A DNA stretch of 64,000 bases from Closterium sp. NIES-65 (Eukaryota; Streptophyta; Zygnematophyceae; Desmidiales; Closteriaceae). Below the pieces are notes generated by a model that saw nothing but the letters and a program-made list of their open reading frames with translations, was not told where the DNA came from and did not search any database. The stretch covers positions 1,054,001 through 1,118,000 of the forward strand of contig CANXME010000542.1 of the NCBI GenBank assembly GCA_948144175.1. The letters run 5' to 3'. Shown in pieces: positions 9,216 to 50,782 of the stretch. The translations under genes and the position numbers were made by a program. Each line of letters starts with the position of its first letter. The stretch's first letter is position 1.

Positions 9216-9499
9216 CCGATGGGTACTATCTTCTAGGTGTTTCAGTCTTCCAGTGCCTTTAATTCCCTGTCCATGGATTCGCGCCATTTTTCTCTGTGCT
9301 CCCCCCCCAGAGCTTGCTGAACTGTGGCAGGCTCCTTTGGTGGCGATGCTCCGTGGACGGCGGCGACGAGTCCGAGTATCTGGAGCCCACTCTGTGCGTA
9401 GCGAGGGAGATTTGGGTCCTCGAGATAGACTGCTTCGTCTCCCCCTTCTGGATCAGGTAAGAAGATGGGGCCTATGCGTTCTGAATCATTTGTGTTGAC

Positions 9500-17963: not shown

Positions 17964-18059
17964 GTCCTGTTCCAAGACCGTTTTTTTTTTTTTTGGCCCA
18001 CCGTACAGTTCCCTGCCCGTAGCACGTTTCCCTGCCCGTAGCGCCCTACCCTGTTCGTT

Positions 18060-32935: not shown

Positions 32936-33422
32936 GGACTACTAGTGCTGTTTTGTTTGTGTAACTCCTCTTAGGCATCATTATAGACCTTAAGACCCAT
33001 GTAACATTGTACTTCTTATATTGTCAATAAATGAGTCTAGTGTCATGTAGCCTCCGATTTGTTTTCGGTTGGGCCTATGACTGGCTACCGAACCTGCACA
33101 AATGCCCCTGTAAGTTTGCTCGATACAATGGCAAACATTTGGTTTGTGTTTATTGGGCGCGATGCTTCTCTCCATTCGATGTCACATCAGCAAAACTGTC
33201 GTGATAAAAACTTGGTCACGGAATATGTTTTGGTGACAAAAGTAATTTGGAAAATTTTCGGACCTTCATGTATACACTGAGTGAACAATGTTCTATTACC
33301 GAAAGTGCAATTACACATTTTTTATTGATAAAGGTTGAATGGTTTGCGTCTAATAGTATCAGATAGAATGCTATCCTTATTTTGTTGGACGAATATAACG
33401 TATTTGTTAAGAAGATAGACTA
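32936..33422. other. AT-rich LINE 3' UTR or spacer
   Basis: The AT content rises sharply here. An aataaa signal lies at about 33,026. No open frame or RNA is supported. The LINE 3' end is not marked by a poly-A run that I can see. Confidence 0.4.
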
Positions 33423-33534
33423 TGTTGGGTATTAGGTCAACAAGGGTGGTACAAGAGAGTGTCGAGAAACTAGGTGTACCCCCTAAGGCTAGGCCCACTA
33501 CAGCCCAGATGAATAATAAACATATGATTTGACA
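33423..33534 (-). repeat. 3' LTR of E5 (about 112 bp)
   Basis: On the minus strand it starts TGTCAAATCATATG, directly after the conserved gctttcccccacttcgccta-type pre-LTR block. The outer border at about 33,423 is inferred from a terminal ...CAACA; no partner LTR exists to confirm it. Confidence 0.65.
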
Positions 33535-33634
33535 CACCCCCATAGGCGAAGTGGGGGATAGCCAGAGAAAGCAATGGTCACAAGACCAGTCAAGAGAAGC
33601 AACAAAGCAAAGCAAGCTCAGGGTGGATCACGAA

Positions 33635-33758
33635 TGTCAGAATGTTATGCTCTAGCCTGTAGTGGGGTGCTCTATAGCGAGTACAACCCTTCTAGGGTTT
33701 GCTATTTGTATCCCCATTCTTGCTAGTTCAATCCTCTTCTTTCTTCTAAATTTTCACA
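33635..33758 (+). repeat. 5' LTR of E6 (124 bp)
   Basis: Starts TGTCAGAATG and ends TTTTCACA; identical to the 3' copy. Target duplication acgaa precedes it at 33,630-33,634. Confidence 0.95.
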
Positions 33759-33770
33759 TGCTATCAGAGC
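33759..33770 (+). other. Primer binding site of E6
   Basis: TGCTATCAGAGC differs at one position from the initiator-Met tRNA primer site TGGTATCAGAGC and directly abuts the LTR. Confidence 0.8.
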
Positions 33771-34014
33771 ACGTCGATCCTCTTGGATCGATCCTGTGGG
33801 TGGGCTCACCACCTCGTTGCTTCCGCTGCAACTACTACTGCTACTCTCTGTGCCGCACGCCCCGTGGCGTGCGGCAGTTTTTTCTTCCCGCCGTGCGCCC
33901 CGAGGCGCGCGGCGGGGCGCACGGCGGTTCTTGGCCCGCTGTGCGCCCCGAGGCGCGTGGCGGGCTTCTGCCCCGTCACTCGGCGCGTCGCCCTCGGGAG
34001 GCGCTGCGACGGGC

Positions 34015-34355
34015 GACGGGGACCCGCGCGTCGGCCCCGTCGCCGCCCGCAGCGGGCCAGTCGCCGCGCGCAGCGGCCCCGTCGCCGCCCGCATCGGCCC
34101 CGTCGCCGCCCGCAGCGGGCCCGTCACCGCGCGCAGCGGCCCCGTCGCCGCCCGCATCGGCCCCGTCGCCGCCCGCAGCGGGCCCGTCGCCGCACGCAGT
34201 GGCCCCGTCGCCGCCCGCATCGGCCCCGTCGCCGCCCGCAGCGGGCCCGTCGCCGCGCGCAGCGGCCCCGTCGCCGCCCGCAGCGGCCCGGTCACCGCCC
34301 GCAGCGACCCGTCCCCGCCCGCATCGGCCGCGCCGTCGCCGCGCGCAGCGACCCC
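34015..34355. repeat. 21-bp repeat in 63-bp higher-order units inside E6
   Basis: A 21-bp subunit (cgcagcgggcccgtcgccg core) is repeated about 16 times. Three subunit types (cgcagcggg, gcgcagcgg, gcatcgg) alternate in order, giving a 63-bp period. Because 21 is a multiple of three, one frame reads SGPVAAR SGPVAAR IGPVAAR in exact register. Open frames exist on both strands, so coding use is not shown. Confidence 0.9.
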
Positions 34356-34486
34356 GTCGCCGCCCTTGCATGGCCCCGGCCCCGCCCCGGCCATTTCCCG
34401 TCGTCCGTCAAGGCGACCTGGGGGAAGGGGGCGGGCGCCGTCCCTTCTGCCGCCTGTTGTGGCGCCCAGGGAGGCCGCGCATCGGT

Positions 34487-34508
34487 CCCCCCCCCCCCCC
34501 CCCCCCCC
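34487..34508. repeat. Homopolymer of 22 C
   Basis: Uninterrupted C-run inside E6; its length is likely variable or uncertain in the assembly. Confidence 0.9.
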
Positions 34509-35183
34509 TCCCCCGTAACCTCCCTACCCGCCATCCCGCCCTGCCCTGTGTTAGGGTTTGGGGGTGGCGAGTGGGGGGGTGGCGGGTGTGTGGTCTCCCC
34601 TGCTCCTCCTCCTCCTCTGTCTCCCACTGCTGCAGCTGCCGCTGAGGGGGGTGGGTGTGTGGGAGTCGACGGAGTCGTGCTAGGGGGTGGGTGTGAGTGA
34701 CCCTAGGGGTGCAGTAGGGGGTGTGTGTCAGGGGGGGTGGGATAGTTTGGGGAAGCTGAATGGAGGTTGCCGTCGTGTCGCCAGCAGCACCTGTATTCCG
34801 GGGACTTCGTCCGGTAGCCCAGTCATAGCCAGCTGTGCCAGCCGCCCGTGGGTCTGTTGCTCGTCTGCCGCTACTTTTAGCCGCGGGGCCAGTTACTCCA
34901 GTAGTCCGGAGCGTTGTTCCGGTAGCCGCTGTGCCAGTGTGCCTCCTGTTGCCCGTGTGTGTGCAGCTTCACTCGTCGCCTCCTATCTCCTCTCCTCTTA
35001 CAGTCTCGCCTCCTCCTCCTCACTTGCCCTCTGCTATAGCCTCTAGCTTTGCTTACACTTGTGAACTTTAAACTGTTGCTTCTTGAACTTGTGCTCAGAA
35101 TGTGTGGTGACATTGTGATCCACCCTGAGCTTGTTCTGCTTTGCTTGCTCTGCTGATTACACCCCACTTTGGCTATGGGGGTG

Positions 35184-35307
35184 TGTCAGAATGTTATGCT
35201 CTAGCCTGTAGTGGGGTGCTCTATAGCGAGTACAACCCTTCTAGGGTTTGCTATTTGTATCCCCATTCTTGCTAGTTCAATCCTCTTCTTTCTTCTAAAT
35301 TTTCACA
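35184..35307 (+). repeat. 3' LTR of E6 (124 bp)
   Basis: Identical to the left LTR and followed by target duplication acgaa at 35,308-35,312. Confidence 0.95.
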
Positions 35308-35459
35308 ACGAAGTCACCACACACTCTGAGCACAAGCAAATGGCCACAAGGCCAGTTCACATGAACAATAATATAAAAGAGAACAAGCAGTACAGAGATC
35401 ACAAACTAGCAAGTATAAGCATGCAGGTATATATATATATATACATATCACAGTACAAG

Positions 35460-36013
35460 CAAAGTCAAGAAGTGAGCAAGTGAGACCAAGTAGGCACAAG
35501 GCCTAAAACAGTACAGAAACGCTGATGATCACAAGGCTGAAGTGCCTTGGTGAATATATCAGCAGCGTTGGCCCGAGACGCCATGTAAGCAAGACGAATC
35601 TGACCACGCTGCTGCAACTCTCGAGCAAGGAAGTAACGCAGAGCGATACGCTTCGTCCTTTGCTCTAGTCTGTGCTTCTGACACAAGGCCAGCATTGCCT
35701 TGTTGTCTTTGTATAGAACTGGAGAACGAGGCGGCTCTCCCGAGTCGGTTAGCAAGTAGGTGAGCCAGCGTAACTCATGTGCAGCCATGGCCCTTGCGTA
35801 GATCTCAGCCTCACAACTGGAACTGAGAACAGAAGAAGAGCGGGTAGACTGCCAAGAAACAGAGCCGAAGCCAAGGCTGAAAGTGTAACACTGTGATGAC
35901 CGCTGCGTAGCCAAGTCATCAACCCAAGACGCGTCTGCGTGTCCAGTGAGGACAACTCGACCCCGTCCTCCAAGCACGATCCCCATGCCCGACGTACTGC
36001 GCAAGTAGCGCAA
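35460..36013 (-). mobile_element. E5 RNase H, downstream part
   Basis: Minus-strand reading shows TGHADASWVDDLATQRSSQ, SSSCEAEIYARAMAAHELRW, YKDNKAMLALC, KRIALRYFLARELQQRGQ and ANAADIFTKALQPCDHQRF, a good match to the RNase H of E7 and E8. It is cut at 36,013 by E7; the continuation is at 50,783. Confidence 0.85.
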
Positions 36014-36144
36014 TGTCAGAACATATAGCTTGTGCATATTGTGTAGGCTATAGTGGGGTAGCCCATAAGGGGTACAACCCAATTAGGGTTAGTAATTGTA
36101 CTCAGTTCATTTATAGTTCATTCTTTCTCATTTCAGTTTTCTCA
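36014..36144 (+). repeat. 5' LTR of E7 (131 bp)
   Basis: Starts TGTCAGAACATATAG, ends AGTTTTCTCA, and is followed by TGGTATCGAGCAGG, the primer site (36,145-36,158). Confidence 0.92.
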
Positions 36145-36199
36145 TGGTATCGAGCAGGTTCCCTCGTGGGAACTGTTCTTAGGGCCCACCAACTCGGAA

Positions 36200-36955
36200 A
36201 ATTTTTTTTCCTGCCCGGAGCGCGCTCAACCCTAGCCCGAGTCGCGCTCCCCTTCCTCCACCTAGTCGCGCCGCCCTAGAAGCCCTGGTGCCTTCCTCGC
36301 GGCCCTCACGCCGCCCTGCGGCCTCGCCACCTACCTCGCGGCCCGTGCGTCGCCCTCTCCTGGCCCCGATCCGCCGCCCTGCGGCCTCAGCGCCTACCCT
36401 CCGGCCCAGCCGCCTGCCTGCGATCTCGCCGCCCTTACGTGCGGCCCCGCCTACTGCCTGCGGCCCCGCCCTAACCTGCGGCCCCGCCACTCAACAGCGG
36501 CCCCGCCGGCCTTACCTGCGGCCTCGCCGCCCTTACCTCCGGCCCCGCCGCCCTCACCTGCGGTCCCCGCCGCCCTTACCTGCGGCCCCAACGCCCTCAC
36601 CTGCGGTCCCCGCCGCCCTCACCTGCGGCCCCGTCACCTGCTGCAGCGCCGCCCGCCACCCGAGCTGCCCGAGCCGCCTCACCCAGCCGAGCAGCCGACC
36701 ACCGCGCCGCCCTGCAGTAGCATAGCCGAGCCGCCCAGCAGCCAAGCAGCCGGATAGCCGAGCCGCCAAGCCGCCCAGCAGCCGAGTCGCCGAGCCGCCG
36801 AGCCGCCCTGCAGCCGAGCCGCCCAACAGCCAAGCCGCCGTGCAGCCGAGCCGCCCTACCGCCGAGCCGCCCGAGTAGCCCCGTCCGGTGAGCACAGCGC
36901 CTCTGTCACTGCACTGCCCTTTCCCTACTATTTGCGCTGCTAGTCTACTGTTGTC
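36200..36955. repeat. GC-rich repeated leader of E7
   Basis: After a short T-run (36,199-36,207), CGGCCCCGCCGCCC-type units (36,400-36,660) pass into gccgagccgcccagcagcc-type units (36,660-36,890). Period is about 18-25 bp and irregular. Same position as the leaders of E3 and E8. Confidence 0.7.
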
Positions 36956-38330
36956 ATGGCTACCCCTAGTGTCCTCGCTTTTGACGCTGAGGGTCGAGCC
37001 ATTGACTTTAAAGTCTGGGTAGATGACCTGCAGCTGTTCTTACAGTGCGACAGGGCAGACGGTCTCTCTCTCTTTGACCTCACCTCTGGCGCCTCTCCTG
37101 CCCCTGCTGCTGATGCTGACGCCACTGTTCGCTCCCAGTGGGCCACGCGCAACGCTGCTGCACGACTTGCTGTGCGTTGCCACCTCCCTAGCTCCGAGCG
37201 TGCGCACTTTAGTCAGTACAAGAGTGCTCAGACCTTGTACGGCGCTGTAGTTGCGCGCTACTCCTCCCCTGCCACTGCTGCACTGAGCCGTCTCATGCTA
37301 CCGTACCTCTTCCCTGACCTTGCTGCCTTTCCCACAGTCGCTGACCTCATTACGCACTTCCGCACTAGTGATACTCGCTACCACGCTGCGCATCCTACTG
37401 TTTTCTGCGCCAAGAACCCCCCCCCCCCGTGTACATCACTCTCTACTACATAGTCACTCGCCTCCTTGACTCCCTTCGTGTAGTCCGGGACCACTTCCTC
37501 CTAGTCTGTCCCACCACTCACACTGTTGACCTCCTCGAGAAGTCCCTCCTAGCGGCCGAGAAGAGCATAGTCGCAGTAGGGGCCTCTCGTGGTGACCCGC
37601 GCACCCCCATCTTTCAGGGGTGCTCCTCCTCCCCCCTTCTGCCCTCTGTTGCCTCTGCTGCTGCGGCCGACCTCCTTGGTCTTGAGTCGGTCGTTGCGGC
37701 GTCTGCCCCTAGCGGGAGACGCCGCTCTGGCAAGGGCAAGGGGGGCAGGGGCACTGGAGGAGCGAGCGTGAGCGGTGGATGTGGAGGTGGAGGCGGCGGG
37801 GGGAGTGGGGGTGGCAGTGGGAGTGGAGGTGGGGGAGGAGGTGTCGGTGGCGGCAGTGGAGGCGGAGGCGGCGGCGGCGGTGGCGGTGGGAGCGGAGGTG
37901 GCGGAGGTGGCGGCGGTGGAGGAGGCGGCGAAGGCGGCGGTGGTAGCGGAGGCAGCGGAGGTGGCGGAGTCGGGGGGGGTGGCGGTGGAGCTGGTCGTGG
38001 GTCTACGCAGAGGAGTGGTTCCGGTGGTGGTCCGCGCCAGCAGCAGCAGCGCGGTCGTGAGACCCTGTCCCCTCAGCAGCTCCGTGAGTGGTACACTGCA
38101 CGCCAGCGGGGTGGGGGTTTTGGTCCGTGCACCTACGTCCTGCGCACCGGCGACCATGCAGGTGAGCAGTGTGGGGGTGCGCACCCCACCCAGCGCTGCT
38201 TTGGCGGCCTGACGGACGCGTGGCGTCACCAGTTCCTGGAGGCCACAGAGATCCCTCGCTGGGGCGAGCTGTCTAGGGCGGGAGATGCCATCTATGATCT
38301 TGATTTTGATGCTATTCTTTCTGCCATGTA
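36956..38330 (+). mobile_element. E7 gag region
   Basis: Starts MATPSVLAFDAEGRAIDFKV and continues WVDDLQLFLQCDRADGLSLF. A long Gly-rich tract of GGN codons spans about 37,740-38,000. The zinc knuckle variant Cys-x13-Cys-x3-His-x4-Cys lies near 38,125-38,200, followed by DAWRHQFLEATEIPRW. Fossil. Confidence 0.88.
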
Positions 38331-38334
38331 AGCT

Positions 38335-39880
38335 GTGACTATTAGTGATGAGGGTGACTATTACCGGTGTTTCCCGCCCGATCCGGGCATTGAGACTGCT
38401 GCTCTAGGTACTGGTGAGGCTGCTGCCCCAGGTGCTTGCGACGCTGCTGCTCTAGGTGCTAGTGCGTTTGCGTCCTTAGGTACTGGTGAGTCTGCGCTCT
38501 CAGGAACTGCGTCGGCTTCGGCCTCCCTCACCTTCACCCTTGACTCTGGGGCTTCTCGCTCCTTCTTTCGGGACAGCACCACACTCACGCCGCTTAGTCG
38601 GCCGGTTGCGGTGTCTCTGGCTGACCCCTCTGGGGGTCCTGCCCTGTCTCACTTCTCCACAGTCCTCCCGTGTCCGGCGGCTCCCTCTGGCACCCTGTCT
38701 GGTCTCTGCCTCCCCTCGTTCTCTACGAACTTGGTGAGTGGTGCTGACCTACAGGATGGGGGAGTAAACCAGTTCACTCCTGCGCGTCAGCGGGTGACGC
38801 ACTACACAGAGGCTCGCACAGGCCGACACTTGGCTACATTTACACGGCAGCCGGGGTCGAGCCTGTACACTCTGACCACCGCGTCTCCTCCAGGTTCTGA
38901 GTCTGGTAGGGTAGCTGCGTCGGGTCAGATGTCTGGTCCTGAGTCTGCCCCCTGTTCGGGTCGTCTCCTGTCTCACGAGACTCTCCTCTGGCACCACCGC
39001 CTTGGTAACCCCTCTTTGCTTTGTCTCAGAGGCATGGCCTCCCGTCTTTTTGTTTCTGGTCTCCCCCGGTCCCTCCCTCCCCTTCCTCAGGGGCCTGGCC
39101 CTACCTGTGTCCCCTATCTCGAGGGGCGCCAGCGGGCTGCCCCTCACTCCTCCCAGTTTCCTCCGAGAGATGCCCCGCTGCAGACGCTCCACATGGACGT
39201 GTGGGGCCCAGCCCGCGTCCGTGGACAGGGTCACGAGCGCTACTTCCTGCTCGTTGTTGACGACTTCTCGCGTTACACCGCGGTCTTCCCCTTGCGCAGC
39301 AAGGGTGATGTCACTGAGGTGCTGATCGACTGGATCCACGCAGCTCATCTCCAACTCAGGCAGAGCTTTGGCTCGGACTTTCCTGTTCTGCGTCTGCACT
39401 CGGACAGAGGCGGAGAGTTTTCCTCTGGCCTTGTGAGAGCCTATTGTCGCTCACGAGGCATCCGTCAGACCTTCACGCTTCCGGACTCCCCGCAAAAAAA
39501 TGGGATCGCTGAGTGCCGCATTGGCATGGTCATGGACGTCGCTCGTACGTCTATGATGCATGCGGCTGCCCCCCATTTTCTGTGGCCGTTTGCGGTGAGG
39601 TACGCGGCGCATCAGATCAACCTTCACCCCAGGGTCTCCAGGCCGGAGACCTCCCCAGGCTTGCTGTGGACGGGGAAGGTTGGCGATGCGTCGGCGTTCC
39701 GGGTCTGGGGATCTCGGGCGTTTGTCCGCGACTTGTCTGCGGACAAGCTGTCCCCTCGTGCTGCTCCTTGCGTCTTCCTGGGGTTCCCCCCTGACGCGCC
39801 TGGGTGGCAGTTCTACCACCCCACCTCTCGCCGTGTTCTGTCCTCCCAAGACGTCACGTTGGATGATTCGGTCCCCTAAT
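38335..39880 (+). mobile_element. E7 protease and integrase region
   Basis: A 514-codon frame. Protease block TFTLDSGASRSFFRD near 38,535; integrase zinc region LLWHHRLGNPSLLCLR; catalytic core LHMDVWGPARVRGQG, VLRLHSDRGGEFSS and NGIAECRIGMVMDVARTSMM; then VWGSRAFVRDLSADKLSPRA and the post-core block FLGFPPDAPGWQFYHP. Confidence 0.9.
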
Positions 39881-40039
39881 ACCGCTTCTTCCCCTACCGC
39901 ACTCCGTCCCTCCCCCCCCCACCCCCCCCCCCCCTCTTCCTTGTCCCAGGTCCCCCCCCGATAGACCCCCTCCCCCCTCAGGGTCGTGCCCCTTCAAGTG
40001 TGTCCCAGGTAGACGCAGTCGAGCCTGTCGAGGTCACTG

Positions 40040-40474
40040 GTGACTCTGGTGCTGCTGAGGGTGCTGAGCGTGGGGGTTTTGAGCCTGGGGGTGCTGAGAC
40101 TGGGGGTGCTGAGCCTGGGGGTGCTGCGCGTGGGGGTGCTGAGCTTGGGGGTGCTGCGCCTGGGGGTGCTGAGCCTGGGGGTGCTGCGCCTGGGGGTGCT
40201 GAGCCTGAGGGTGCTGAGCCTGGGGGTGCTGGGCCTGGAGGTGCTGTGCCTGGGGGTGCTCCACTTGGGGGTGCTGCGCCTGGAGGTGCTGAGCTTGGAG
40301 GTGCTACGCCTGGAGGTTCTCCGGGTGCTTCGTCTCTACGGGAGCCACTGTCTCCACAGGAGCTTCGCGAGTGGTTTGCCCGACGCTGGAGCCGTGCTGC
40401 TGGAGCTGGAGGTTCTTCGACTACTAAGGGTGCTGCTGTCGCGGGTCCCGGAGGTGCTCGTACTGGGAGTACTT
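40040..40474 (+). repeat. 15-bp codon repeat of the E7 linker
   Basis: Units of ggtgctgagcctggg and close variants code Gly-Ala-Glu-Pro-Gly for about 20 copies. The linker joins integrase and RT in all family S copies with variable copy number. It continues at 48,008 after E8. Antisense and off-frame open reading (for example His-Pro-Gln-Ala repeats) is a shadow of it. Confidence 0.9.
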
Positions 40475-40604
40475 TGTGAAACAGGAAAACAGGAATGGAT
40501 TGACTAAGGAAAGATTGGGTACAAATACAACCCTAGAAAGCTGTACCCCATATGTGCTACCCCACTATAGCCTACAAACATGCATGAGCTATAATACTCT
40601 GACA
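40475..40604 (-). repeat. 3' LTR of E8 (130 bp)
   Basis: On the minus strand starts TGTCAGAGTATTATAGC and ends CCTGTTTCACA. Target duplication tactt at 40,470-40,474. Confidence 0.95.
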
Positions 40605-40815
40605 CACCCCCATAGGCTAAGTGGGGGAGAACAAGGGGTCACAAGACCAGTCAAGCAAAGCAAAGCAAAGCAAGCTCAGGGTGGATCACAAAGTCACCAC
40701 ACAGTCCGAGCACAAGAGCAGGGCCAGAGGCCAGTTCACATGCAGGAGTACAGACATATATACAAAACTAGACAAGCAAGAGCAGGTATATATATATGTC
40801 ACAGTACAAGTGAAG
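40605..40815 (-). other. 3' UTR of E8
   Basis: Contains the family's conserved blocks, read on the minus strand: gtgatccaccctgagcttgc, a repeated ttgct run, and ttctcccccacttagcctat with ggggg just before the LTR. A short (TA)n lies near 40,788. Confidence 0.75.
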
Positions 40816-43800
40816 TCAAGAGGAGAGCAAGTGAGGCAAGACAGGTACAAGACCCAGCTGGGTGCAAAAGCGCTGATGGTCACAAGGCGCGAGTGCCTTG
40901 GTGAACACATCAGCAGTGTTGGCCTCAGAGGCCACGTAAGCAAGTCGCAACTGACCACGCTGCTGCAGCTCACGAGCAAGGAAGTAGCGGAGAGCAATGT
41001 GCTTCGTTCTGTGCTCCAAGCGCTGCTCTCGACACAAGGCCAGCATGGCCTTGTTGTCCACGTACAGCACTGGAGGAGAACGAGGCGGCTCTCCAAGGTC
41101 AGTCAGCAGGTAGGTGAGCCAGCGAAGCTCCTGTGCACCCATGGCCCCAGCGTAGATCTCAGCCTCACAACTGGAGCCGAGAACCGAAGACGAGCGAGTA
41201 GACCGCCACGAGACAGAGCCGGAACCAAGGCTGAAGGTGTAACCCTGTGACGACCGCTGCGTAGCCTGGTCGTCAGCCCAAGAAGCGTCCGCGTGGCCGG
41301 TAAGGACCACTGGACTCCGCCCTCCAAGCACTAGCCCCATGCCCGACGTACTGCACAGGTAGCGCAATACCCTCTTCGCTGCAGCCATGTGCTCCGGTCT
41401 GTGTCTCCCAGGAGCGACATAGCGTGCAAGAATGCTCAGAGGGTATGCAAGGTCAGGTCGTGTGCAGGTCATCAGGTACATGAGGCAGCCAACAAGCTCT
41501 GCATACGGACCACTCGACTCTACGGACTCATCCGAAGGCAGAGCTGAGAGTGAGTGGCGAGTAGGCAGAGGAGTGGCCTGAGGCGAGGAGTACGTGAAGC
41601 CGAAGCGCTGAAGGACCTGCTGCACCATGTGTGACTGAGTCAAGGTAATGGTGCGGCGTGCTCTGTCCCGAGTGATCTGCAAGCCAAGGTAGCTGCGCAG
41701 TTCACCCAGGTCTGTGCACGTGTGTCTCTTCAGCAGCTCGGACTTCACGTAGGCAAGTCCAGCAGTGTCCGCTGTGGCAAAGACCAAGTCGTCGACGTAC
41801 ACGAGGATGTAGAACGGCGGCAGGGAAGTGTCGGTGCGAAGAAACAGCGACGGGTCAGCAGTAGAAGGAGCAAACCCAAGAGCCGCAAGCGTAGTCCTCA
41901 GTGTGTCGTGCCACTCACGCGGTGCCTGGCGGAGACCGTAGACTGGCCGTCGGAGGCTCCACTGGGTGCCAGGAGGGAAAGTCCCAGTGAAGCCAGGTGG
42001 ACGGCGAAGCCAGATCTCCTCGTGCAGGCTACCCTGCAAGAACGCAGTGCTGAAGTCGAGAGAGTGAAGCTCGTAGTCGCGCTGAGCGGCTATGTGCAGC
42101 AGCACCCGAAGAGTAGTCATCTTCGGGGTGGGAGAGAAGGTCTGAAAGTAGTCAACTCCCTGCCGCTGACTGAAGCCACGAGCAACGTACCGTGCCTTGA
42201 AGACAGGTGGAGAGCCCGGCGGTCGCTTCACCCTGAAGATCCACATGCCACTGACGATGTTCGCCCCAGGAGGGGGAACCGCGTCAACGTAGGTGCCTGT
42301 GGACTTCCAGGAAGCCATCTCTGCATCCATAGCTGCCTGCCACTGAGAGGAGTAGGGACCCTCTACGGCCTCCGCGTAAGAACGCGGAGTCGGGATGTCT
42401 AGTGCATCCGGGTCTCCCTCAGGGGCAAGCAGTACAGACGCGAGATGAGGTGAAGCAGCCGCTAGACACTGTAACTCCTCCTGCCTGTCCTCTAGGACGT
42501 CCGTGCCAAGAGCACACTCACCCCCGACGGACGGAGGACAGACAGACGCAGACTCAGCAACAAGACTAGCAGCGTAGTCGAGACGACAGCGAGCAGCAAA
42601 GTCGACGAGCTCAGCGACAAGGGCAGACGCAGCAGTGGACTCAAACGAGGGGTCAGTGACGACAGTAGCAAGGAGACGCGTGACAGTAGGACTGGCAGCA
42701 CGAAGAGAGTCCGACTCAGGGTCGGCGAGCGCAGGAAGAGAGGACTCAGGAGGAGAAGGCAAAGGGGCACGCAGAGGAGCAGTGGACGGACGCAAAGACA
42801 TCCGGTGCGTGCCAGGGACAGGAGGAGGACGCTGACGCGAACTGCGACCACTAGCGCGAGCAGCACGAACAGGCGACGCGGGACGAGACGCAGGCTCACG
42901 ACGCTCAGCAAGACCTCCAGTAGGACCAGCGTAAGGAGAGGGAGCAGGCAGTGGAGAGGAAGGCTCCAGCAGGGACTGCGACTCGACAGGCGGTGGACCC
43001 TCTACTGGAGGAGAAAGACCAAGAACCTGCTGCAGGAGCGGAACGAAGTACGGTCGAGGCCGCGCAGCAGCTCCAGACTCAGCAGGGACAGCACCAGCAC
43101 CCTCAGCGACAGCACCAGCGCCACCCACACCTCCACCGGCAGGACCAACAGCAGTAGGCTCAGCACCAACGCCCTCAGCAGGTCCAGCTCCAGGAGGACC
43201 CGCAGGTCCAGCAGCTCCGGGACCGGCAGCACCCGCACCCTCGACGGTCGAAGAAGCTCCAGCTCCAGCTCCAGCAGCACCTCCAGACTCAGCAGCACGC
43301 CTCCAGCGGCGAGCGAACCACTCGCGCAGCTCCTGTGGAGAGAGGGGCTCCCAGCGAGACGCAGCAGCAGGAGAAACCCCAGGCTCAGCAGCTCCAGACG
43401 CAGCACCCCCAGGCTCAGCAGCTCCCAGCTCAGCACCCCCAGGCTCAGCAGCTCCCCACCCAGCACCCCCAGACCCAGCACCTCCAGGCACAGCACCCCC
43501 CGGCTCAGCATCCCCAGGCTCCGCACCCCCCGCAGTAGCACCCTCAGGCCCAGCACCCCCAGCAGTAGCACCCCCAGGCTCAGCACCCCCGCGCACAGCA
43601 CCCCTAGAGTCAGCACCCCCAGGCTCAGCACCCGCAGCAGCACCAGAGTCACCAGTAACCTCGACCGGGTCAACGGCGTCTACCTGGGACACACCTGAGG
43701 GGGCAGGAACCTGAGGGGGGAGGGGGTCTACCGGGGGGGGAACCGGCACAAGGAAGTCCGGGGGAGGGGGGAGGGAAGGAGTGCGGTAGGGGAAGAGACG

Positions 43801-45231
43801 GTAGAAGGGGACTGACTCGTCGAACGTGACGTCCTGGGAGGACAGAACACGACGAGAGGAGGGGTGGTAAAACTGCCACCCTGGGGCGTCAGTGGGGAAG
43901 CCAAGGAAGACACAGGGAGCAGCACGAGGGGACAGCTTGTCCGCAGACAAGTCGCGGACAAACGCCCGAGATCCCCAAACACGGAACACAGACGCATCGC
44001 CAACCTTCCCCGTCCACAGCAAGGCTGGGGACATCGCAGGCCGAGAGACCCGGGGGTGAAGGTTGAGCTGATGCGCCGCGTACCTCACCGCAAACGGCCA
44101 CAGAAAATGGGGGGCAGCCGCATGCATCATGGACGTACGAGCGACATCCATGACCATGCCAATGCGGCGCTCAGCAATCCCATTTTGCTGTGGAGAGTCC
44201 CGAAGCGTGAAGGTCTGGCGGATCCCCCGTGCACGACAGTAGTCTCGCAGAAGGCGAGAAGAGAACTCTCCGCCTCTGTCCGAGTGCAGACGCAGAACAG
44301 GAAAGTCCGAGCCGAAGCTCTTACTGAGCTGGAGACGAGCCTCGCGGATCCAGTCGATCAGCACCTCAGTGACCGCACCCTTGCTGCGCAAGGGGAGGAC
44401 TGTGGTGTAACGCGAGTAGTCGTCAACCACCAGCAGGAAGTAGCGCTCGTAACCCTGCCCACGGACGGGGGCTGGGCCCCACACATCCATGTGAAGCGTC
44501 TGCAGGGGAGCCTCTGTTGGGGGGAAGTGGGAGGAGTGAGGAGTAGCCCGGAGGCGACCCTCGACACAGGGGACACAGGAAGGTCCTGGCCCGGAGGGGA
44601 GAGGAGGGAGAGACTGGGGAAGACCAGAGACAAGGACACGGGAAGCCATGCTCCGAAGACGGGGCAAGGAGGGGTGGCCAAGACGGTGGTGCCACAGGAG
44701 AGTCTCGTGAGACAGGAGGCGACAAGAACAGGGGGCAGACTCAGGACCTGACCGGGACGCAGCAGCAAGCACCTGACCCGACGCAGCCACGTGACCAGAC
44801 GCAGGGACAGGAGGAGACTCAACGGTCAGGGTGTAGAGACTCGACCCCGGCCGACGCGAGAACGTGGCCAGGTGTCGGCCTGTGCGTGCCTCCGTGCAGT
44901 GGGTCACCCGCTGACTCGCAGGAGTGAACTGGTGAACCCCCACATCCTGCAGGTCCGCTCCACTCACCAAGTTCGTAGAGAACGAGGGAAGGTACAGACC
45001 AGACAGGGTGCCCGAAGGGGCAGCCGGACACGGGAGGACAGTGGAGAAGTGAGACAGGACAGGACCCCCAGAGGGGTCAGCAAGGGAGACCGCAACCGGC
45101 CGGCCGAGCGGCGTAAGGGTAGTGCGGTCTCGAAAGAAGGAGCGAGAAGCCCCGGAGTCAAGTGTGAAAGTGAGGGAGGACGAGGACGACGCAGTACCTG
45201 AGAGCGCAGTCTCACCAGTACCTGAGAGCAC
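40816..45231 (-). CDS. E8 pol polyprotein (family S Copia)
   Basis: A 1,471-codon open frame. Domains in order: aspartic protease (TLDSGASRSFFRD, about residues 24-36), integrase zinc region (LLWHHRLGHPSLPRL, CVPCVEGR), integrase core (LHMDVWGPAPVRGQG, LHSDRGGEFSSRLL, NGIAERRIGMVMDVA), a 15-bp-repeat linker of Gly-Ala-Glu-Pro type (about residues 520-660), a Pro-rich stretch, RT (MWIFRVKRPPGSPPVFKARY, LDFSTAFLQGSLHEEIW, YILVYVDDLVFA) and RNase H (TGHADASWADDQATQRS, YVDNKAMLALC, ANTADVFTKALAPCDHQRF). The ATG used is simply the first in the frame; the natural product would be a gag-pol polyprotein as usual for Copia. It is the longest open frame in the window and could supply proteins to non-autonomous relatives such as E6. 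Confidence 0.92.
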   Translation of the reverse strand: MLSGTGETALSGTASSSSSLTFTLDSGASRSFFRDRTTLTPLGRPVAVSLADPSGGPVLSHFSTVLPCPAAPSGTLSGLYLPSFSTNLVSGADLQDVGVHQFTPASQRVTHCTEARTGRHLATFSRRPGSSLYTLTVESPPVPASGHVAASGQVLAAASRSGPESAPCSCRLLSHETLLWHHRLGHPSLPRLRSMASRVLVSGLPQSLPPLPSGPGPSCVPCVEGRLRATPHSSHFPPTEAPLQTLHMDVWGPAPVRGQGYERYFLLVVDDYSRYTTVLPLRSKGAVTEVLIDWIREARLQLSKSFGSDFPVLRLHSDRGGEFSSRLLRDYCRARGIRQTFTLRDSPQQNGIAERRIGMVMDVARTSMMHAAAPHFLWPFAVRYAAHQLNLHPRVSRPAMSPALLWTGKVGDASVFRVWGSRAFVRDLSADKLSPRAAPCVFLGFPTDAPGWQFYHPSSRRVLSSQDVTFDESVPFYRLFPYRTPSLPPPPDFLVPVPPPVDPLPPQVPAPSGVSQVDAVDPVEVTGDSGAAAGAEPGGADSRGAVRGGAEPGGATAGGAGPEGATAGGAEPGDAEPGGAVPGGAGSGGAGWGAAEPGGAELGAAEPGGAASGAAEPGVSPAAASRWEPLSPQELREWFARRWRRAAESGGAAGAGAGASSTVEGAGAAGPGAAGPAGPPGAGPAEGVGAEPTAVGPAGGGVGGAGAVAEGAGAVPAESGAAARPRPYFVPLLQQVLGLSPPVEGPPPVESQSLLEPSSPLPAPSPYAGPTGGLAERREPASRPASPVRAARASGRSSRQRPPPVPGTHRMSLRPSTAPLRAPLPSPPESSLPALADPESDSLRAASPTVTRLLATVVTDPSFESTAASALVAELVDFAARCRLDYAASLVAESASVCPPSVGGECALGTDVLEDRQEELQCLAAASPHLASVLLAPEGDPDALDIPTPRSYAEAVEGPYSSQWQAAMDAEMASWKSTGTYVDAVPPPGANIVSGMWIFRVKRPPGSPPVFKARYVARGFSQRQGVDYFQTFSPTPKMTTLRVLLHIAAQRDYELHSLDFSTAFLQGSLHEEIWLRRPPGFTGTFPPGTQWSLRRPVYGLRQAPREWHDTLRTTLAALGFAPSTADPSLFLRTDTSLPPFYILVYVDDLVFATADTAGLAYVKSELLKRHTCTDLGELRSYLGLQITRDRARRTITLTQSHMVQQVLQRFGFTYSSPQATPLPTRHSLSALPSDESVESSGPYAELVGCLMYLMTCTRPDLAYPLSILARYVAPGRHRPEHMAAAKRVLRYLCSTSGMGLVLGGRSPVVLTGHADASWADDQATQRSSQGYTFSLGSGSVSWRSTRSSSVLGSSCEAEIYAGAMGAQELRWLTYLLTDLGEPPRSPPVLYVDNKAMLALCREQRLEHRTKHIALRYFLARELQQRGQLRLAYVASEANTADVFTKALAPCDHQRFCTQLGLVPVLPHLLSS

Positions 45232-45306
45232 AGACGCACTGGCACCTAGAGCAGCAGCCTCACAAGCACCTAGCGCAGCAGTACCAATGCCCGGGTCGGG
45301 CTGGAA

Positions 45307-46746
45307 TCACCGGTAACCCTCATTCTCTTCACTATAATCCACAGCATACATAGCAGCAAGGATAGCATCAAAATCAAGATCAAAGATCGCTACACCAGCC
45401 CTAAGAAGCTCATCCCAGCGAGGGATCTCACTAGCCCCAGGGAACTGCCGACGCCAAGCGTCCGTCAGGCGGCCAAAGCAGCGCTGGGTGGCGTGGGCAC
45501 CCCCACACTGCTCACCCGCGCGGTCGCCGGAACGAAGAACGTAGGTGCAGGGACCAGTACCCCCACCCCTCTGACGCCCAGCGTACCACTCACGAAGCTG
45601 CTGAGGCGGAGGGATGTCCCGCGAGCGCTGCTGCTGCTGCCGCTGCGAGCGCTGGCCACCACCACCGCCGCTACGCTGCTGGGTACCACCCCGACCAGCT
45701 CCACCTCCTCCACCACCACCGCCTCCTCCGCTGCCGCCTCCACCGCCTCCACCTCCGCCGCCTCCACCTCCGTCGCTGCCTCCACCACCACCGCTGGCAC
45801 CACCACCGCCGTCTCCGCTGCTGTTGCCACCACCACCACCACCACCCCCGCCACTAGTCCCGCCACCACCCCCACTCCCTCCGCCGCCACCGCCGCCACC
45901 GCCACCGCCCCCTCCAGCCCCACCCGCGCCCTTGCCCCCCTTGCCCTTGCTAGAGCGACGTCTCCCACTAGGGGTAGACGCCGCGCCGACCGACTCAAGA
46001 CCAAGCAGGTCGGCAGCAGCAGCAGAGGCAACAGAGGGCAGCAAGGGGGAAGGAGAGCACCCCTCAAAGATGGGGGTGCGAGGGTCACCACGAGAAGCAC
46101 CTACAGCAACTATGCTCTTCTCCGCTGCGAGGAGGGCCTTCTCGAGGAGGTCGACGGTGAGGGTGGTGGGATAGACAGCGAGAAAGTGGTCCCTGACGAC
46201 GCGAAGGGAGTCAGGGAGGCGCGCGACTACGTAGTAGAGAGCGATGTACATGGGGGGGGGGTTCTTAGCGCAGAACTCAGCAGGAAGGGCGGCGCGGTAG
46301 CGAGTGTCACTAGTGCGGAGGTGCGTAATGAGGTCAGCAACAGTGGGAAAGGCAGAGAGGTCAGGAAAGAGGTAGGGAAGCATGAGACGGCTCAGTGCAG
46401 CAGTGGCAGGGGAGGAGTAGCGCGCAACTACAGCGTCGTACAAGGTCTGAGCACTCTTGTACTGGCTAAAGTGCGCACGCTCAGAGGTAGGGAGGTGGCG
46501 ACGCACAGCAAGACGTGCAGCAGCATCGCGGGTGGCCCACTGAGAGCGGACAGAGGGATCAGCATCAGCAGCAGGAGCAGGAGAGGCGCCAGAGGTGAGG
46601 TCAAAGAGAGAAAGGTCGTCAGCCCTGTCGCACTGTAAGAACAGCTGCAGGTCGTCTAACCAGACCTCAAAATCAATGGCGCGACCCTCAGCGTCGAAAG
46701 CTAGGACACTAGGGGTAGCCATGGCGACGACAGCGACGCAGTGCAA
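45307..46746 (-). CDS. E8 gag (family S Copia)
   Basis: A 479-codon frame; the start conserved between copies is MATPSVLAFDAEGRAIDFEV at 46,722. The N-terminal half is an alpha-rich gag domain (WLDDLQLFLQCDRADDLSLF, LPDSLRVVRDHFLAVYPTTL). A basic SGRRRSSKGKGGKGAGG stretch leads into a Gly-rich tract of about 80 residues coded by GGN triplets (45,690-45,930). Then comes a Gln/Arg run and a zinc knuckle with a 13-residue first loop, Cys-x13-Cys-x3-His-x4-Cys (about 45,545-45,475), and DAWRRQFPGASEIPRWDELL. The gag would coat the RNA in the virus-like particle. The long first loop is unlike the normal Cys-x2-Cys knuckle but is the same in all family S copies. Confidence 0.9.
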   Translation of the reverse strand: MHCVAVVAMATPSVLAFDAEGRAIDFEVWLDDLQLFLQCDRADDLSLFDLTSGASPAPAADADPSVRSQWATRDAAARLAVRRHLPTSERAHFSQYKSAQTLYDAVVARYSSPATAALSRLMLPYLFPDLSAFPTVADLITHLRTSDTRYRAALPAEFCAKNPPPMYIALYYVVARLPDSLRVVRDHFLAVYPTTLTVDLLEKALLAAEKSIVAVGASRGDPRTPIFEGCSPSPLLPSVASAAAADLLGLESVGAASTPSGRRRSSKGKGGKGAGGAGGGGGGGGGGGGGSGGGGGTSGGGGGGGGGNSSGDGGGGASGGGGGSDGGGGGGGGGGGGGSGGGGGGGGGGAGRGGTQQRSGGGGGQRSQRQQQQRSRDIPPPQQLREWYAGRQRGGGTGPCTYVLRSGDRAGEQCGGAHATQRCFGRLTDAWRRQFPGASEIPRWDELLRAGVAIFDLDFDAILAAMYAVDYSEENEGYR

Positions 46747-46759
46747 GCAGTAGGGAAAG

Positions 46760-47760
46760 AGCTCGCAGTGTCAGTGGGACTGTGCTCACTAGGCAGGGCA
46801 GGTCGTGTAGCTCTGCAGAAAGGCGGCTCAGCGACCGGGCGGCTCGGGTGCACAGCGGCTCGGCTCCCGGGCGGCTCGGTGGCTGGGCGGCTCGGGCGCA
46901 GGGCGGCTCGGCTCTCGGGCGGCTCGGCGGCTGGGCGGCTCGGGTGCAGGGCGACTCGGCTCCCGGGCGGCTCGGCGTTGGGCGGCTCGGCTCCCGGGCG
47001 GTTCGGCTGCTGGGGCGGCTCGGCCGGGAGATGCAAGGGCGGGGCCGTCAGGTGCAGCGGCGGGTCGACCGGTGCAGTGACGGGCCGGCAGGTGCAGCGG
47101 CGGGCCGGCAGGTGCAGCGGCGGGCCGGCAGGTGAAGCGGCGGGCCTCTGGGTGCAGCGGCGGGCCGGCAGGCACAGCGGCGGGCCGGCAGGAGCAGCGG
47201 CGGGGCCGTCAGGAGAGGCGGCGGGCCGTAGGGTGCAGCGGCGGGCCGTAGGGTGCAGCGGCGGGCCGTAGGGTGCAGCGGCGGGCCGTAGGGTGCAGCG
47301 GCGGGCCGTAGGGTGCAGCGGCGGGCCGGCAGGTGCAGCGGCGGGGCCGTCAGGCGAAGCGGCGGGCCGTTGGGTGCAGCGGCGGGCCGGTAGGTGCAGC
47401 GGCGGGCCGGCAGGTGCAGCGGAGTGCCGGCAGGAGCAGCGGCGGGCCGGCAGGAGCAGCGGCGGGGCCGTCAGGTGAGGCGGCGGGCCGTAGGGTGCAG
47501 CGGCGGGCCGTAGGGTGCAGCGGCGGGCCGGCAGGGCCGCGTCAGAGGCGGCGGCGGGGCCGCGGCAGTAGAGGCGGGGCCGCGTCAGGGGAGGCGGCGG
47601 GGCCGCGTCAGGGGAGGCGGCGGGCCGCGTCAGGAGAGGCGGCGGGGCCGCGTCAGAGGAGGCGGCGGGCCGCGTCAGGAGAGGCGGCGGGGCCGCGTCA
47701 AGCAGGAGAGGTGGCGGGGCCGCGTCTGAGGGACAGCGGGGCCGCGAGGGAAAAGGCGAC
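46760..47760. repeat. GC-rich tandem repeats in the E8 leader
   Basis: Several blocks: cgggcggctcgg-type units (46,830-47,030), a 20-bp unit gggtgcagcggcgggccgta (clear at 47,230-47,330, with ggcaggtgcag variants on both sides) and gccgcgtcaggagaggcggc-type units (47,540-47,720). Between gag and LTR, in the place of the leaders of E3 and E7. The long open frames here are artefacts. Confidence 0.85.
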
Positions 47761-47773
47761 CCCAGGGGTCGCC

Positions 47774-47801
<28 letters not shown>
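47774..47801. repeat. Run of 28 A (T on the E8 sense strand)
   Basis: In E8 orientation this is a T28 tract about 70 bp after the primer site. E3 has T14 and E7 about T8 at the corresponding place. Confidence 0.9.
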
Positions 47802-47805
<4 letters not shown>

Positions 47806-47858
47806 GCGCCTCGGGGCGCGCTTCGGTGGGCCCTAAAAAAAACGGTCCTAAGGCAGGA

Positions 47859-47872
47859 CCCGCTCTATACCA
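47859..47872 (-). other. Primer binding site of E8
   Basis: On the minus strand TGGTATAGAGCGGG directly follows the 5' LTR, close to TGGTATCAGAGC. Confidence 0.8.
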
Positions 47873-48002
47873 TGTGAAACAGGAAAACAGGAATGGATTG
47901 ACTAAGGAAAGATTGGGTACAAATCCAACCCTAGAAAGCTGTACCCCATATGTGCTACCCCACTATAGCCTACAAACATGCATGAGCTATAATACTCTGA
48001 CA
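47873..48002 (-). repeat. 5' LTR of E8 (130 bp)
   Basis: Differs from the other LTR at one site. Followed on the plus strand by target duplication tactt (48,003-48,007) and then by the E7 linker. Confidence 0.95.
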
Positions 48003-48007
48003 TACTT

Positions 48008-50450
48008 GAGCTGGTGGGCCTGCAGGTTCGACTGGAGCTGGTTCTGCTGAGGGTGTTGGCGCTGAGACTACTGCTGGCGGTCCTATTGGGGGTACTACTG
48101 GTGCTGCTGGAGGTTCTGGAGCTGCTGGAGGTGCTACTGGAGCGGTTGCTCCTGTTGGGAGTACTGGTACTGTTCCTGCTGTGTCTGGCGTCGCCGCGCG
48201 GCCTCGACTGTACTTCGTTCCCCTCCTGCAGCAGGTTCTTGGTCTTCCGCCTTCTACTGGTCCTCCTCCTTCTTTAGAGTGTCCACAGCCTGTCCCGTCA
48301 CAGTTACAGTTGCAGCCTACCTCCCCTTTGCCTGCTCCTTCTCTCTACACTGGTCCTACTGGAGGTCTTGCTGAGCGTTGTGAGCCTGCGTCTCGCCCTG
48401 CGTCACATGTCCGAGCTGCTCGCACTAGTGGTCGTGGTTTGCGTCAGCGTCCACCTCCTGTCCCTGGCACGCACCGGATGTCTCTGCGTCCGTCCACTGC
48501 TCCTCTGCCTTCTCCTCCTGAGTCCTCATTTCCTACTCTTGCCGACCCTGAGTCGGACTCTCTTTGTGCTGCCAGTCCTATTGTCACGCGTCTCCTTGCT
48601 ACTGTCGTAACTGACCTTTCTTTCGAGTCCACTGCTGCGTCTGCCCTAGTTGCTGAGCTCGTCGACTTTGTTGCTTGCTGTCGCCTAGACTACGCTGCTA
48701 GTCTTGTCACTGAGTCTGAATCTGTCTGTCCTCCGTCCGTCGGGGGTGTGTTTGCCCTTGGCACGGACGTCCTTGAGGACAGGCAGGAGGAGTTCCAGTG
48801 TCTGACAGCTGCTTCACCTCATCTCTGGTCTGTACTGCTTACCCCTGAGGGAGACCCGGATGCACTTGACATCCCGACTCCGTGCTCTTACGCGGAGGCG
48901 ATAGAGGGTCCCTACTCCTCTCAGTGGCAGGCAGCTATGGATGCAGAGATGGCTTCCTGGAATTCCACAGGCACCTACGTTGACGCTGTCCCCCCCTCTT
49001 GGGGCGAACATCGTCAATGGCATGTGGATTTTCAAGGTGAAGCGGCCGCCGGGTTCTCCGCCTGTCTTCAAGGCGCGTTACGTGGCTCGTGGCTTCAGAC
49101 AGCGGCAGGGAGTTGTCTACTTTCAGACCTTCTCCCCTACCCCGACGATGAACACTCTTCGGGTACTGCTGCACGTAGCTGCTCACCGTGACTACGAGCT
49201 ACACTCTCTTGACTTCAGCACTGCTTTCCTGCAGGGCAGCCTGCACGAGGAGATCCGGCTGCTCCGCCCACTTGGCTTCACTGGGAATTTTCCTTCTGGC
49301 ACCCAGTGGAGCCTCCGGCGGCCAGTCTACGGTCTCCGCCAGGCACCGCGTGAGTGGCACGACACACTGAGGACTACACTTGCGGCTCTTGGGTTTGCTC
49401 CCTCTACTGCCGACCCGTCGCTGTTTCTACGCACCGACACTTCTCTGCCGCCGTTCTACATCCCCGCGTACGTTGACGACTTGGTCTTTGCCACAGCTTA
49501 CACTGCTGGACTCGCCTACGTGAAGTCCGAGCTGCAGAAGAGACACACGTGCACAGACCTGGGTGAGCTGCGCAGCTACCTTGGCTTGCAGATCACCCGG
49601 GACAGAGCACGGCGCACCATTACCCTGACTTAGTCACACATGGTGCAGCAGGTCCTTCAGCGCTTCGGCTTCACGTACTCCTCGCCTCAGGCCACTCCTC
49701 TGTCTACTCGCCACTCGCTCTCAGCTCTGCCTTCGGATGAGTCCGTAGAGTCGAGTGGCCCGTACCTAGAGCTTGTTGGCTGCCTCATGTACCTGATGAC
49801 CTGCACACGACCTGACCTTGCATACCCTCTTAGCATTCTCGCACGCTATGTTGCTCCTGGGAGACACCGACCAGAGCACATGGCTGCAGCGAAGAGGGTG
49901 TTGCGCTACTTGTGCAGTACGTCAGGCATGGGGCTAGTGCATGGAGGGCGGAGTCCAATGGTCCTCACTGGGCACGCGGACGCTTCTTGGGCTGACGACC
50001 AGGCTATGCAGCGGTCGTCACAGGGTTACACCGTCAGCCTTGGTTCCGGCTCTGTTTCGTGGCGGGCTACTCGCTCGTCCTCTGTTCTCGGCTCTAGTTG
50101 TGAGGCTGAGATCTACGGAGGGGCCATGGCTGCACAGGAGCTTCGCTGGCTCACCTACGTGCTGACAGACCTTGGAGAGTCGCCTCGTTCTCCTCAAGTC
50201 CTGTACGTAGACAACAAGGCCATGCTGGCCTTGTGACGAGAGCAGCGACTGGAGCACAGAATAAAGCTCATTGCTCTTTGCTACTTCCTTGCTCGTGAGC
50301 TACAGCAGCGTGGTCAGTTGCGGCTTGCGTACGTGGCCTCTGAGGCCAACACTGCTGATGTCTTCACCAAGGCACTTGCGCCTTGTGATCATCAGCGCTT
50401 CTGCACGCAGCTGGGTCTTGTACCTGTCTTGCCTCACTTGCTCACCTCTT
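48008..50450 (+). mobile_element. E7 linker end, RT and RNase H
   Basis: E7 resumes with Gly-Ala-type linker DNA and YFVPLLQQVLGLPPS, then a Ser/Pro-rich part (PASHVRAARTSGRGLRQRPP, TDLSFESTAASALVAELVDF). RT follows (VDAVPP, MWIFKVKRPPGSPPVFKARY, LHSLDFSTAFLQGSLHEEIR, YGLRQAPREWHDTL), and RNase H (YLELVGCLMYLMTCTRPDLA, TGHADASWADDQAMQRSSQ, SSCEAEIYGGAMAAQELRW, YVDNKAMLAL). Fossil with several breaks. Confidence 0.88.
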
Positions 50451-50662
50451 GACCTTGCTTGTACTGTTGCATATATATACACCTGCTCTTGCTTGTCTAG
50501 TCTTTTATTTATATGTACTCCTGCATGTGAACTGGCCTTGTGGCCTTGAACTTGTGCTCGGAATGTGTGGTGACTTTGTGATCCACCCTGAGCTTGCTTT
50601 GCTTTGCTTTGCTTTACTGGTCTTGTGACCCCTTGTTCTCCCCCACTTTGCCTATGGGGGTG

Positions 50663-50782
50663 TGTCAGAACATATATCTTGTGCATATTGTGTAGGCTAT
50701 AGTGGGGTAGCCCATAAGGGGTACAACCCAATTAGGGTTAGTACTTGTACTCAGTTCATTCATTCTCGTTTCAGTTTTCTCA
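50663..50782 (+). repeat. 3' LTR of E7 (120 bp)
   Basis: Same start and end as the 5' LTR, shorter by 11 bp, with about four base changes. Preceded by ttctcccccactttgcctat with ggggg; followed by target duplication cgcaa. Confidence 0.92.

Follow-up and report, generated by a model that had tools for sequence, protein, structure and literature searches.

A gene-less, high-copy LTR retrotransposon lineage of Closterium with an antisense initiator tRNA-like leader, probably copied in trans by related copia elements

How does an LTR retrotransposon that encodes no protein multiply, and what do its non-coding parts do? The question is raised by E6, an element in a 64,000-nt stretch of the Closterium sp. 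NIES-65 genome (the window). E6 has paired TG...CA LTRs, a target site duplication (TSD), a primer binding site (PBS), a polypurine-type tract (PPT) and no gag or pol, the features by which a non-autonomous LTR retrotransposon is recognized. Its parts and those of its surroundings are the following.

33527..33634, minus strand: start of the 3′ LTR and end of the 3′ UTR of the host copia, interrupted by E6 and continuing at 35308-36013
33630..33634, no strand: left copy of the TSD, ACGAA
33635..33758, plus strand: 5′ LTR, 124 nt, equal to the 3′ LTR
33759..33770, plus strand: PBS-like site TGCTATCAGAGC, with C at position 3 where the CCA of tRNA-iMet predicts G
33759..33840, plus strand: leader block aligning to the reverse complement of a nearly whole initiator tRNA
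33849..33964, plus strand: GC-rich hairpin-forming repeats, akin to the ~36-bp leader unit of the family
34027..34365, plus strand: 21-bp/63-bp tandem array, 87% G+C, copy number variable across the family
34368..34740, plus strand: family-specific middle
34741..35183, plus strand: family 3′ region
35089..35133, plus strand: conserved 45-nt tail motif, common to E6 and coding copia
35174..35183, plus strand: PPT TATGGGGGTG, just before the 3′ LTR
35184..35307, plus strand: 3′ LTR
35308..35312, no strand: right copy of the TSD, ACGAA
35308..36013, minus strand: remainder of the host copia, 3′ UTR and end of the reverse transcriptase region, truncated at 36013
40475..48005, minus strand: coding copia in the vicinity, its two LTRs 98.5% identical, with an open frame of 1496 aa that has integrase and RVT_2 domains

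E6 is 1673 bp long and sits within the 3′ UTR of a minus-strand copia that is itself truncated. Its LTRs (33635-33758 and 35184-35307, 124 nt each) are 100% identical, its termini read TG...CA, ACGAA flanks it on both sides, and the PBS-like TGCTATCAGAGCACG and the tract TATGGGGGTG are in place. An earlier reading of the window, made from the sequence only, had reported the identical LTRs and the exact target duplication, and both were borne out; the primer site that it had listed is present too, except for the C instead of the predicted G at position 3. It had also called the element very young, which is compatible with identical LTRs and weakly constrained by them: zero differences over 124 sites bound the divergence only to less than about 2.4%. 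The absence of gag and pol was confirmed in that Pfam found no retrotransposon domain in the four stop-free frames of E6 (three plus, one minus). MINT_RAM7, in two frames, and MSSP matched below their cut-offs and were read as low-complexity noise; HV_Gp350_C-term on the minus-strand frame scored above its cut-off and was still read as such. Rfam returned four matches over 33400-35500, all far below gathering scores, and ARAGORN (bacterial setting) predicted no tRNA gene in the whole window.

E6 was compared with known kinds of gene-less LTR element. Retrozymes are small non-autonomous LTR elements of plants; the hammerhead ribozyme that marks them was not found in 33400-35500 with Rfam at E values up to 1. 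LARDs are non-autonomous elements that have LTRs and no coding and are kilobases larger, with long LTRs; E6 is like them in lacking autonomy and coding, but does not have their kilobases of LTR and interior. The TRIM/LARD idea of the sequence-only reading, that of an element of intermediate size, was right about a non-autonomous, TRIM-like character; at over 1 kb E6 is too long for a strict TRIM, and it does not reach the size of a LARD. In the available part of a TRIM survey (PMC4717578), TRIMs resemble E6 in their short LTRs, 5-bp TSD, PBS, PPT, lack of coding and, usually, lack of a known coding partner: LTRs are below 250 bp in 197 of 289 subfamilies, and for 278 of the 289 no coding partner is known. 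TRIMs are defined there by a total length below 1 kb, to which 64 of the 289 subfamilies do not conform (PMC4717578). With LTRs of 124 bp and a TSD of 5 bp, E6 lies within the TRIM ranges of less than about 250 bp and 4-6 bp, but its length of 1.67 kb fails the size rule, and we therefore call it a TRIM-like variant; tandem arrays and a whole-tRNA antisense leader are also not among the TRIM features described in that part of the survey (PMC4717578). Helenus/TRIMp3, as far as the available account goes (PMC10886601), is likewise a short non-autonomous LTR element with tRNA-derived sequence, but there the tRNA sits within the LTR as a pol III promoter, whereas the best iMet match of E6 is antisense and lies in the leader, adjoining the PBS.

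Relatives of E6 were sought in the genome (874 Mb, 2,400 contigs). The LTR, leader, array, middle and 3′ region each have many genomic copies, and as only 40 of 1,732 to 9,737 candidates were scored per search, copy counts are lower bounds. The sample consisted of the window and of 60 loci, fetched by place, that had been selected for their similarity to E6. In it a script recognized 53 spans running from LTR to LTR: 48 are short, E6 among them, three are long (L009-L011), and two (L049 and L050) are false because they reach over nested neighbours. For nine more 5′ ends the rules of the script yielded no partner, and L026, L031, L061 and L063 are among the loci without a pair. The 48 short elements, E6 and 47 others, measure 1443-1944 bp. 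By script, 41 of them have an exact 5-bp TSD; in the other seven (L019, L022, L024, L036, L052, L062 and L065) it is missing or imperfect, or the boundary is off. Mismatches between the two LTRs number 0 to 7 per element, apart from L044, L045 and L051, where the start of the 5′ LTR is poorly aligned, and seven elements including E6 have none (L027 with one gap).

Across the genome, the E6-type 5′ junction with the T-arm complement that follows it occurs at 2,995 places (1,468 + 1,527) with at most two mismatches, and the reversed pattern at none; a shorter, 21-nt form of the junction occurs at 6,519. The junction of PPT and LTR was found at 29,501 places, and near-identical forms are present in coding copia as well. 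When the zero-mismatch lists for contigs C1-C52 were inspected by eye, five of nine 5′ junctions had a same-strand 3′ junction 1.06-1.37 kb away and are short elements; the remaining four were unpaired. Other copies, for which the sequence-only reading had suggested a search, are many, as the 47 short elements and the 2,995 5′ junctions show.

Some copies on different contigs have a TSD in common (L013/L014/L015; L020/L032/L033/L035; L021/L023; L030/L055; L044/L045/L051; L049/L050; L059/L060), and in one TSD-sharing group two copies sit on the same contig. Such copies represent either later duplication of the surrounding DNA or haplotypes of one site. Dropping 13 of them leaves 37 other insertions, L009 included. 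Across these, identity to E6 is highest in the LTR core (98-99.5%), in leader nt 1 to ~130 (about 95-97.5%), at 34522-34720 (94-98%), where the 3′ region begins (96%) and in the last ~110 nt (96-98%); in the least similar intervals it is 83-88%. The interior recurs as well: 34740-35183 is 95-99% identical in 39 other scored places (40 scored out of 4,500 candidates) and 34370-34760 is 88-95% identical in 39 (40 scored out of 4,471 candidates). The part from 34,700 to 35,050, singled out earlier as GC-rich, is therefore ordinary middle and 3′ region found family-wide, and the suggestion that the middle was DNA captured by this copy was not supported, every part of E6 being shared across the family.

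Several of the matches to 34740-35183 have an equal identity of 96% and an equal span, as if they formed one homogeneous subfamily. Two larger structures were seen in passing. At L061 (3112-7532, G000:C1672), an element of 4,421 bp has E6-type LTRs (123/125 identical), the TSD ATCTT, a 1.9-kb array with 55 copies of a 35-bp unit and, ahead of the middle and 3′ region of E6, a foreign LTR-like stretch with its own PBS; it looks like a composite from template switching. On the minus strand of G000:C752 (553231-557256), the distance of 4.0 kb between a 5′ junction and a 3′ region of E6 type points to a further element of about 4.3 kb.

The array at 34027-34365 contains 5.3 copies of the 63-bp period, or 15.8 copies of the 21-bp period, and the higher-order repeat of 21-bp subunits described from the sequence is thus real. 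In the top two TRF rows of the 48 elements, a 21-bp array is reported for 19, with 3.6 to 26.8 copies, so that repeat number does vary as the sequence-only reading had proposed to check; the 63-bp phase is reported for E6 and L029 only. In many elements without the 21-bp array the GC-rich unit measures about 50, 81 or 131 bp instead; the ~36-bp leader unit is frequent (TRF). GC-rich arrays are also present near the 5′ ends of coding copia in the window (18011-18796, 36398-36872 and 46822-47746). Tat/Ogre elements, in the portion of the literature at hand (PMC7004042), have hypervariable 3′ UTR tandem repeats, for which recombination between co-packaged copies has been proposed as the source. 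Their arrays vary in unit and number between copies as those of the E6 family do, but Ogre arrays lie downstream of gypsy coding regions, whereas the E6 array lies between leader and middle of a gene-less element (PMC7004042).

The best full-length relatives of E6 are only 88-89% identical to it, while individual pieces are 96-100% like different copies. The LTR is closest to L009-L011 and L027 (99.2%), leader nt 1-90 to L036, L029 and L025 (98.9%) and leader nt 91-272 to L029 (97.3%). The first half of the middle is closest to L012 and L046 (95.9%; in L029 only 68.9% of letters matched) and its second half to L048 (100%); in the 3′ region, the first half is closest to L021, L022, L034 and L014 (99.1%; L029, 88.6%) and the second half to L021 (99.1%). 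Of the sites that distinguish L029 from L021, the numbers at which E6 sides with the former and with the latter are 10:3 for the leader, 15:6 for the middle and 0:28 for the 3′ region (Fisher's test, leader versus 3′ region, 2.6e-7; these parents were picked post hoc from the identity table, and seven other pairs gave 6.9e-7 to 0.036). On these comparisons E6 is a mosaic of sub-lineages. Such a pattern is usually explained by switching of templates between co-packaged RNAs, which may have produced it here; gene conversion is a possible alternative.

We then compared E6 with coding copia of the same genome, with which it has the LTR core, primer region, 3′ tail and PPT in common; relatives with these cis signals carry rve and RVT_2, and E6 itself is without pol. 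The local identity of the E6 LTR to coding copia A, B and C is about 70-77% over 59-111 aligned nt, with weaker matches to the host copy (82.6% over 23 nt) and to D (69.1% over 94 nt). Most coding copies agree at 91-98% in the 116-nt tail of the coding type, to which E6-type elements are 75-80% and the interrupted host copy 76% identical. In the loci examined, the 45-nt tail motif is present 76 times (59 E6-type, 15 coding and 2 unclear), in 27 distinct forms. A hairpin in the tail, GCTCAG...CTGAGC, was rejected: 98.5% of cells pair, yet 500 of 500 shuffles pair likewise because the alignment columns hardly vary, and covariation gave no support.

L009-L011 were candidates for coding elements with E6-type LTRs, with lengths of 7.2-8.8 kb, a common TSD (AACCG) and copia domains in broken frames. 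They proved not to be a coding partner but an E6-type element into whose GC-rich array a coding copia had inserted, because L009 has an inner LTR pair (738-871 and 6338-6471, 97.8% identical) with the TSD CCCGT on both sides. The pol of this inner element has 97-100% identity in the 40 places scored out of 4,656 candidates, indicating that coding copia is high-copy. None of the loci examined, which were chosen by E6 similarity, contains a coding element whose LTRs are of E6 type.

Taken together, these comparisons make it likely that E6 represents a gene-less, high-copy lineage of LTR retrotransposons for which Gag and Pol of related copia in the same genome do the copying in trans. The basis is the many insertions with different TSDs, the lack of coding, the signals shared with coding copia, the mosaic ancestry of E6 and the tRNA-like leader described below; a common LTR core, primer region, tail and PPT would fit copying in trans. 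What counts against it is that no coding E6-LTR element was seen among the loci examined and that LTR and tail are only moderately like the coding type (70-77% and 75-80%). The copia at 40475-48005 is the kind of element that could provide the proteins.

Other origins for E6 and its interior have to be weighed against this. A recent internal deletion of a coding family S copia of the window would account for the common layout of LTR, primer region, GC-rich array, 3′ tail and PPT, and TRIMs are thought to originate by internal deletion in the available part of the survey (PMC4717578). However, the LTRs are only about 70-77% like those of A, B and C over the aligned parts, the middle (34368-34740) and the first part of the 3′ region share a single 37-bp patch with coding copia of the window, and the E6-type family is large and diverse, so that we regard a recent deletion as quite improbable; an old deletion from an unseen coding relative is possible. 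The two findings that the sequence-only reading had named as speaking against itself, a lack of other copies and an interior explained as that of a deleted family S element, were not made: copies are many, and the interior has just the one patch. Capture of host DNA by the founder of the family could explain why 34368 to about 35080 is GC-rich, has no similarity to coding copia of the window and gave no Pfam domains in the frames scanned, but the middle and 3′ region are present across the E6-type family, and we consider such a capture unlikely. For the array, the 63-bp repeat might encode a peptide, SGPVAAR, under selection. The 21-bp period is divisible by three, and in the SGPVAAR frame adjacent 21-mers differ at codon positions 1, 2 and 3 in 9, 11 and 24 of 93 sites, which alone looks coding-like. 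The excess at position 3 nevertheless comes from a few fixed variant sites recurring in each 63-mer, and between 63-mers the differences are 16, 10 and 20 of 89. All three plus frames of E6 are open (263-329 codons), and because they are open at the 87% G+C of the array the SGPVAAR frame is not special; moreover, for 29 of the 48 elements the top two TRF rows do not include a 21-bp array. Selection on a peptide is thus very improbable, and the coding-like character attributed to the repeat from the sequence was not upheld.

Under the preferred reading of copying in trans, the start of the leader deserves attention. We compared it with what we take to be the plant tRNA-iMet sequence, whose 27-nt anticodon-arm core is exact at 28 of 32 genomic places found with at most two mismatches (reversed control, 0). 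The reverse complement of this tRNA, assumed outside the 27-nt core, aligns to nt 1-82 of the E6 leader. After removal of the 12-nt PBS, the E6 leader scored 53, compared with a maximum of 39 in 2000 shuffles (0/2000); among coding leaders, the scores of B and the inner L009 element were reached by 4/2000 shuffles, that of A by 34/2000 and that of C by 86/2000. When both strands of the window were scanned, the top four places were the four copia leaders (E6 66, B 50, C 38 and A 35) and the best place outside them scored 33; only E6 and B stand clear because the reversed-tRNA control, at 39, exceeds C and A. Beyond the PBS, all 53 parsed spans score 49-57, as opposed to 14-19 for the reversed control, and each score is the maximum of its span. 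A looser search gave 31 distinct E6-class leaders with scores of 22-57 (at least one poor match) and 13 other leaders, two of them E6-type with TGG and 11 coding-type. For eight of the 11, no more than 6 of 300 shuffles reached the score; for the other three, 10, 33 and 37 did. The predicted duplex of tRNA and E6 leader has an energy of -88.0 kcal/mol, and shuffles beyond the PBS reached -64.2 at best (0/200); B, L026 and, narrowly, A were likewise ahead of every one of 200 shuffles, and C was reached by 11/200.

An antisense copy of a nearly whole initiator tRNA at the start of the leader is a new observation, and it is partly kept in coding relatives; in a limited literature collection we found no paper that uses the term extended primer binding site for a retrotransposon, and none of the papers listed speaks of antisense tRNA in connection with the PBS of an LTR retrotransposon. 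The block is no working tRNA gene, and neither Rfam nor ARAGORN predicted one. Positions usually unmatched to the tRNA are PBS position 3, position 12, two positions in the T arm and the anticodon-loop TTA; mostly unmatched, too, are isolated positions beyond these and roughly the last five nt. Among 100 E6-type junctions listed, 91 have C and 9 have G at the third position of the PBS, and coding leaders here have TGG. Re-copying of the PBS from the CCA of the tRNA would yield G at this position, and the E6-type PBS seems to be inherited from element RNA, not rewritten from tRNA. The departures from the tRNA are common to members of the family and therefore inherited, from which we infer one old capture, perhaps of a primer read-through product.

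We prefer a role for the leader in primer capture by long pairing. A copia-related lineage may have captured a near-complete antisense primer tRNA once and kept it for ~70 nt of pairing; the gene-less E6 family, in which the copy is better preserved than in the coding relatives, may have an advantage over these in competing for primer and particle. We advance this scenario tentatively and give it somewhat less than an even chance. The leader could instead hold no captured tRNA but several short, separate stretches complementary to the tRNA and selected because they bind the primer. In the available part of the work on Ty1 and Ty3 (PMC4974528), sequences outside the PBS that are complementary to the TPsiC and DHU arms help to package the primer and to initiate reverse transcription. 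E6 is like them in having tRNA-iMet complementarity past the acceptor end, which in Ty1 lies downstream of the PBS, but they carry short patches whereas E6 has a near-complete collinear antisense tRNA (PMC4974528). The weak matches in three of the 11 coding leaders, reached by 10, 33 and 37 of 300 shuffles, agree with separate patches; the collinear match in E6 over nearly the whole tRNA, including anticodon- and D-arm stretches, and its presence in 53/53 parsed spans do not, and we find this explanation possible but doubtful. A further parallel exists in some retroviruses. According to the portion available (PMC13191261), plus-strand synthesis can reach the 5′ end of an unmodified tRNA, and lentiviruses and spumaviruses carry a primer over-extension sequence. 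As in E6, the sequence after their PBS is complementary to further parts of the primer tRNA; there it is a short stretch adjoining the PBS, in contrast to about 70 nt with inherited departures from the tRNA in E6 (PMC13191261).

With the leader acting in long pairing, copying in trans would proceed as follows. The LTR would drive an RNA that retains only cis signals, and the antisense-tRNA leader would pair with initiator tRNA far beyond the usual PBS, helping to bring the primer and to start reverse transcription. Tail and PPT would complete copying, two RNAs in one particle could recombine to give mosaics and changed GC-rich arrays, and integration would produce the 5-bp TSDs. Gene-less LTR elements are natural minimal constructs whose retained parts point to RNA signals sufficient for trans-copying; in the E6 family, the most conspicuous of these are the LTR core, the leader start, the tail and the PPT. 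With a leader mirroring nearly the whole primer tRNA, the family also makes the extent of primer-template pairing in LTR retrotransposons testable outside yeast, as well as the question whether a parasite can win by better pairing.

The surroundings of E6 are rich in copia, with gag, integrase and RVT_2 domains among ten open frames scanned in the window. A plus-strand copia (LTR pair 36014/50663; span 36014-50782) appears to contain the minus-strand copia at 40475-48005 with its long open frames. Nesting by this one superfamily is heavy, with copia in copia adjoining E6 in the 3′ UTR of a third. Elsewhere in the assembly, rbcL, which is of the green type and has 34.9% G+C around it, was found at 20 full-length places on several contigs (G000:C75, C97, C162, C265, C824, C1848, C1961, C2174 and C40) in both orientations, representing either plastid DNA assembled in rearranged or repeated form or nuclear insertions.
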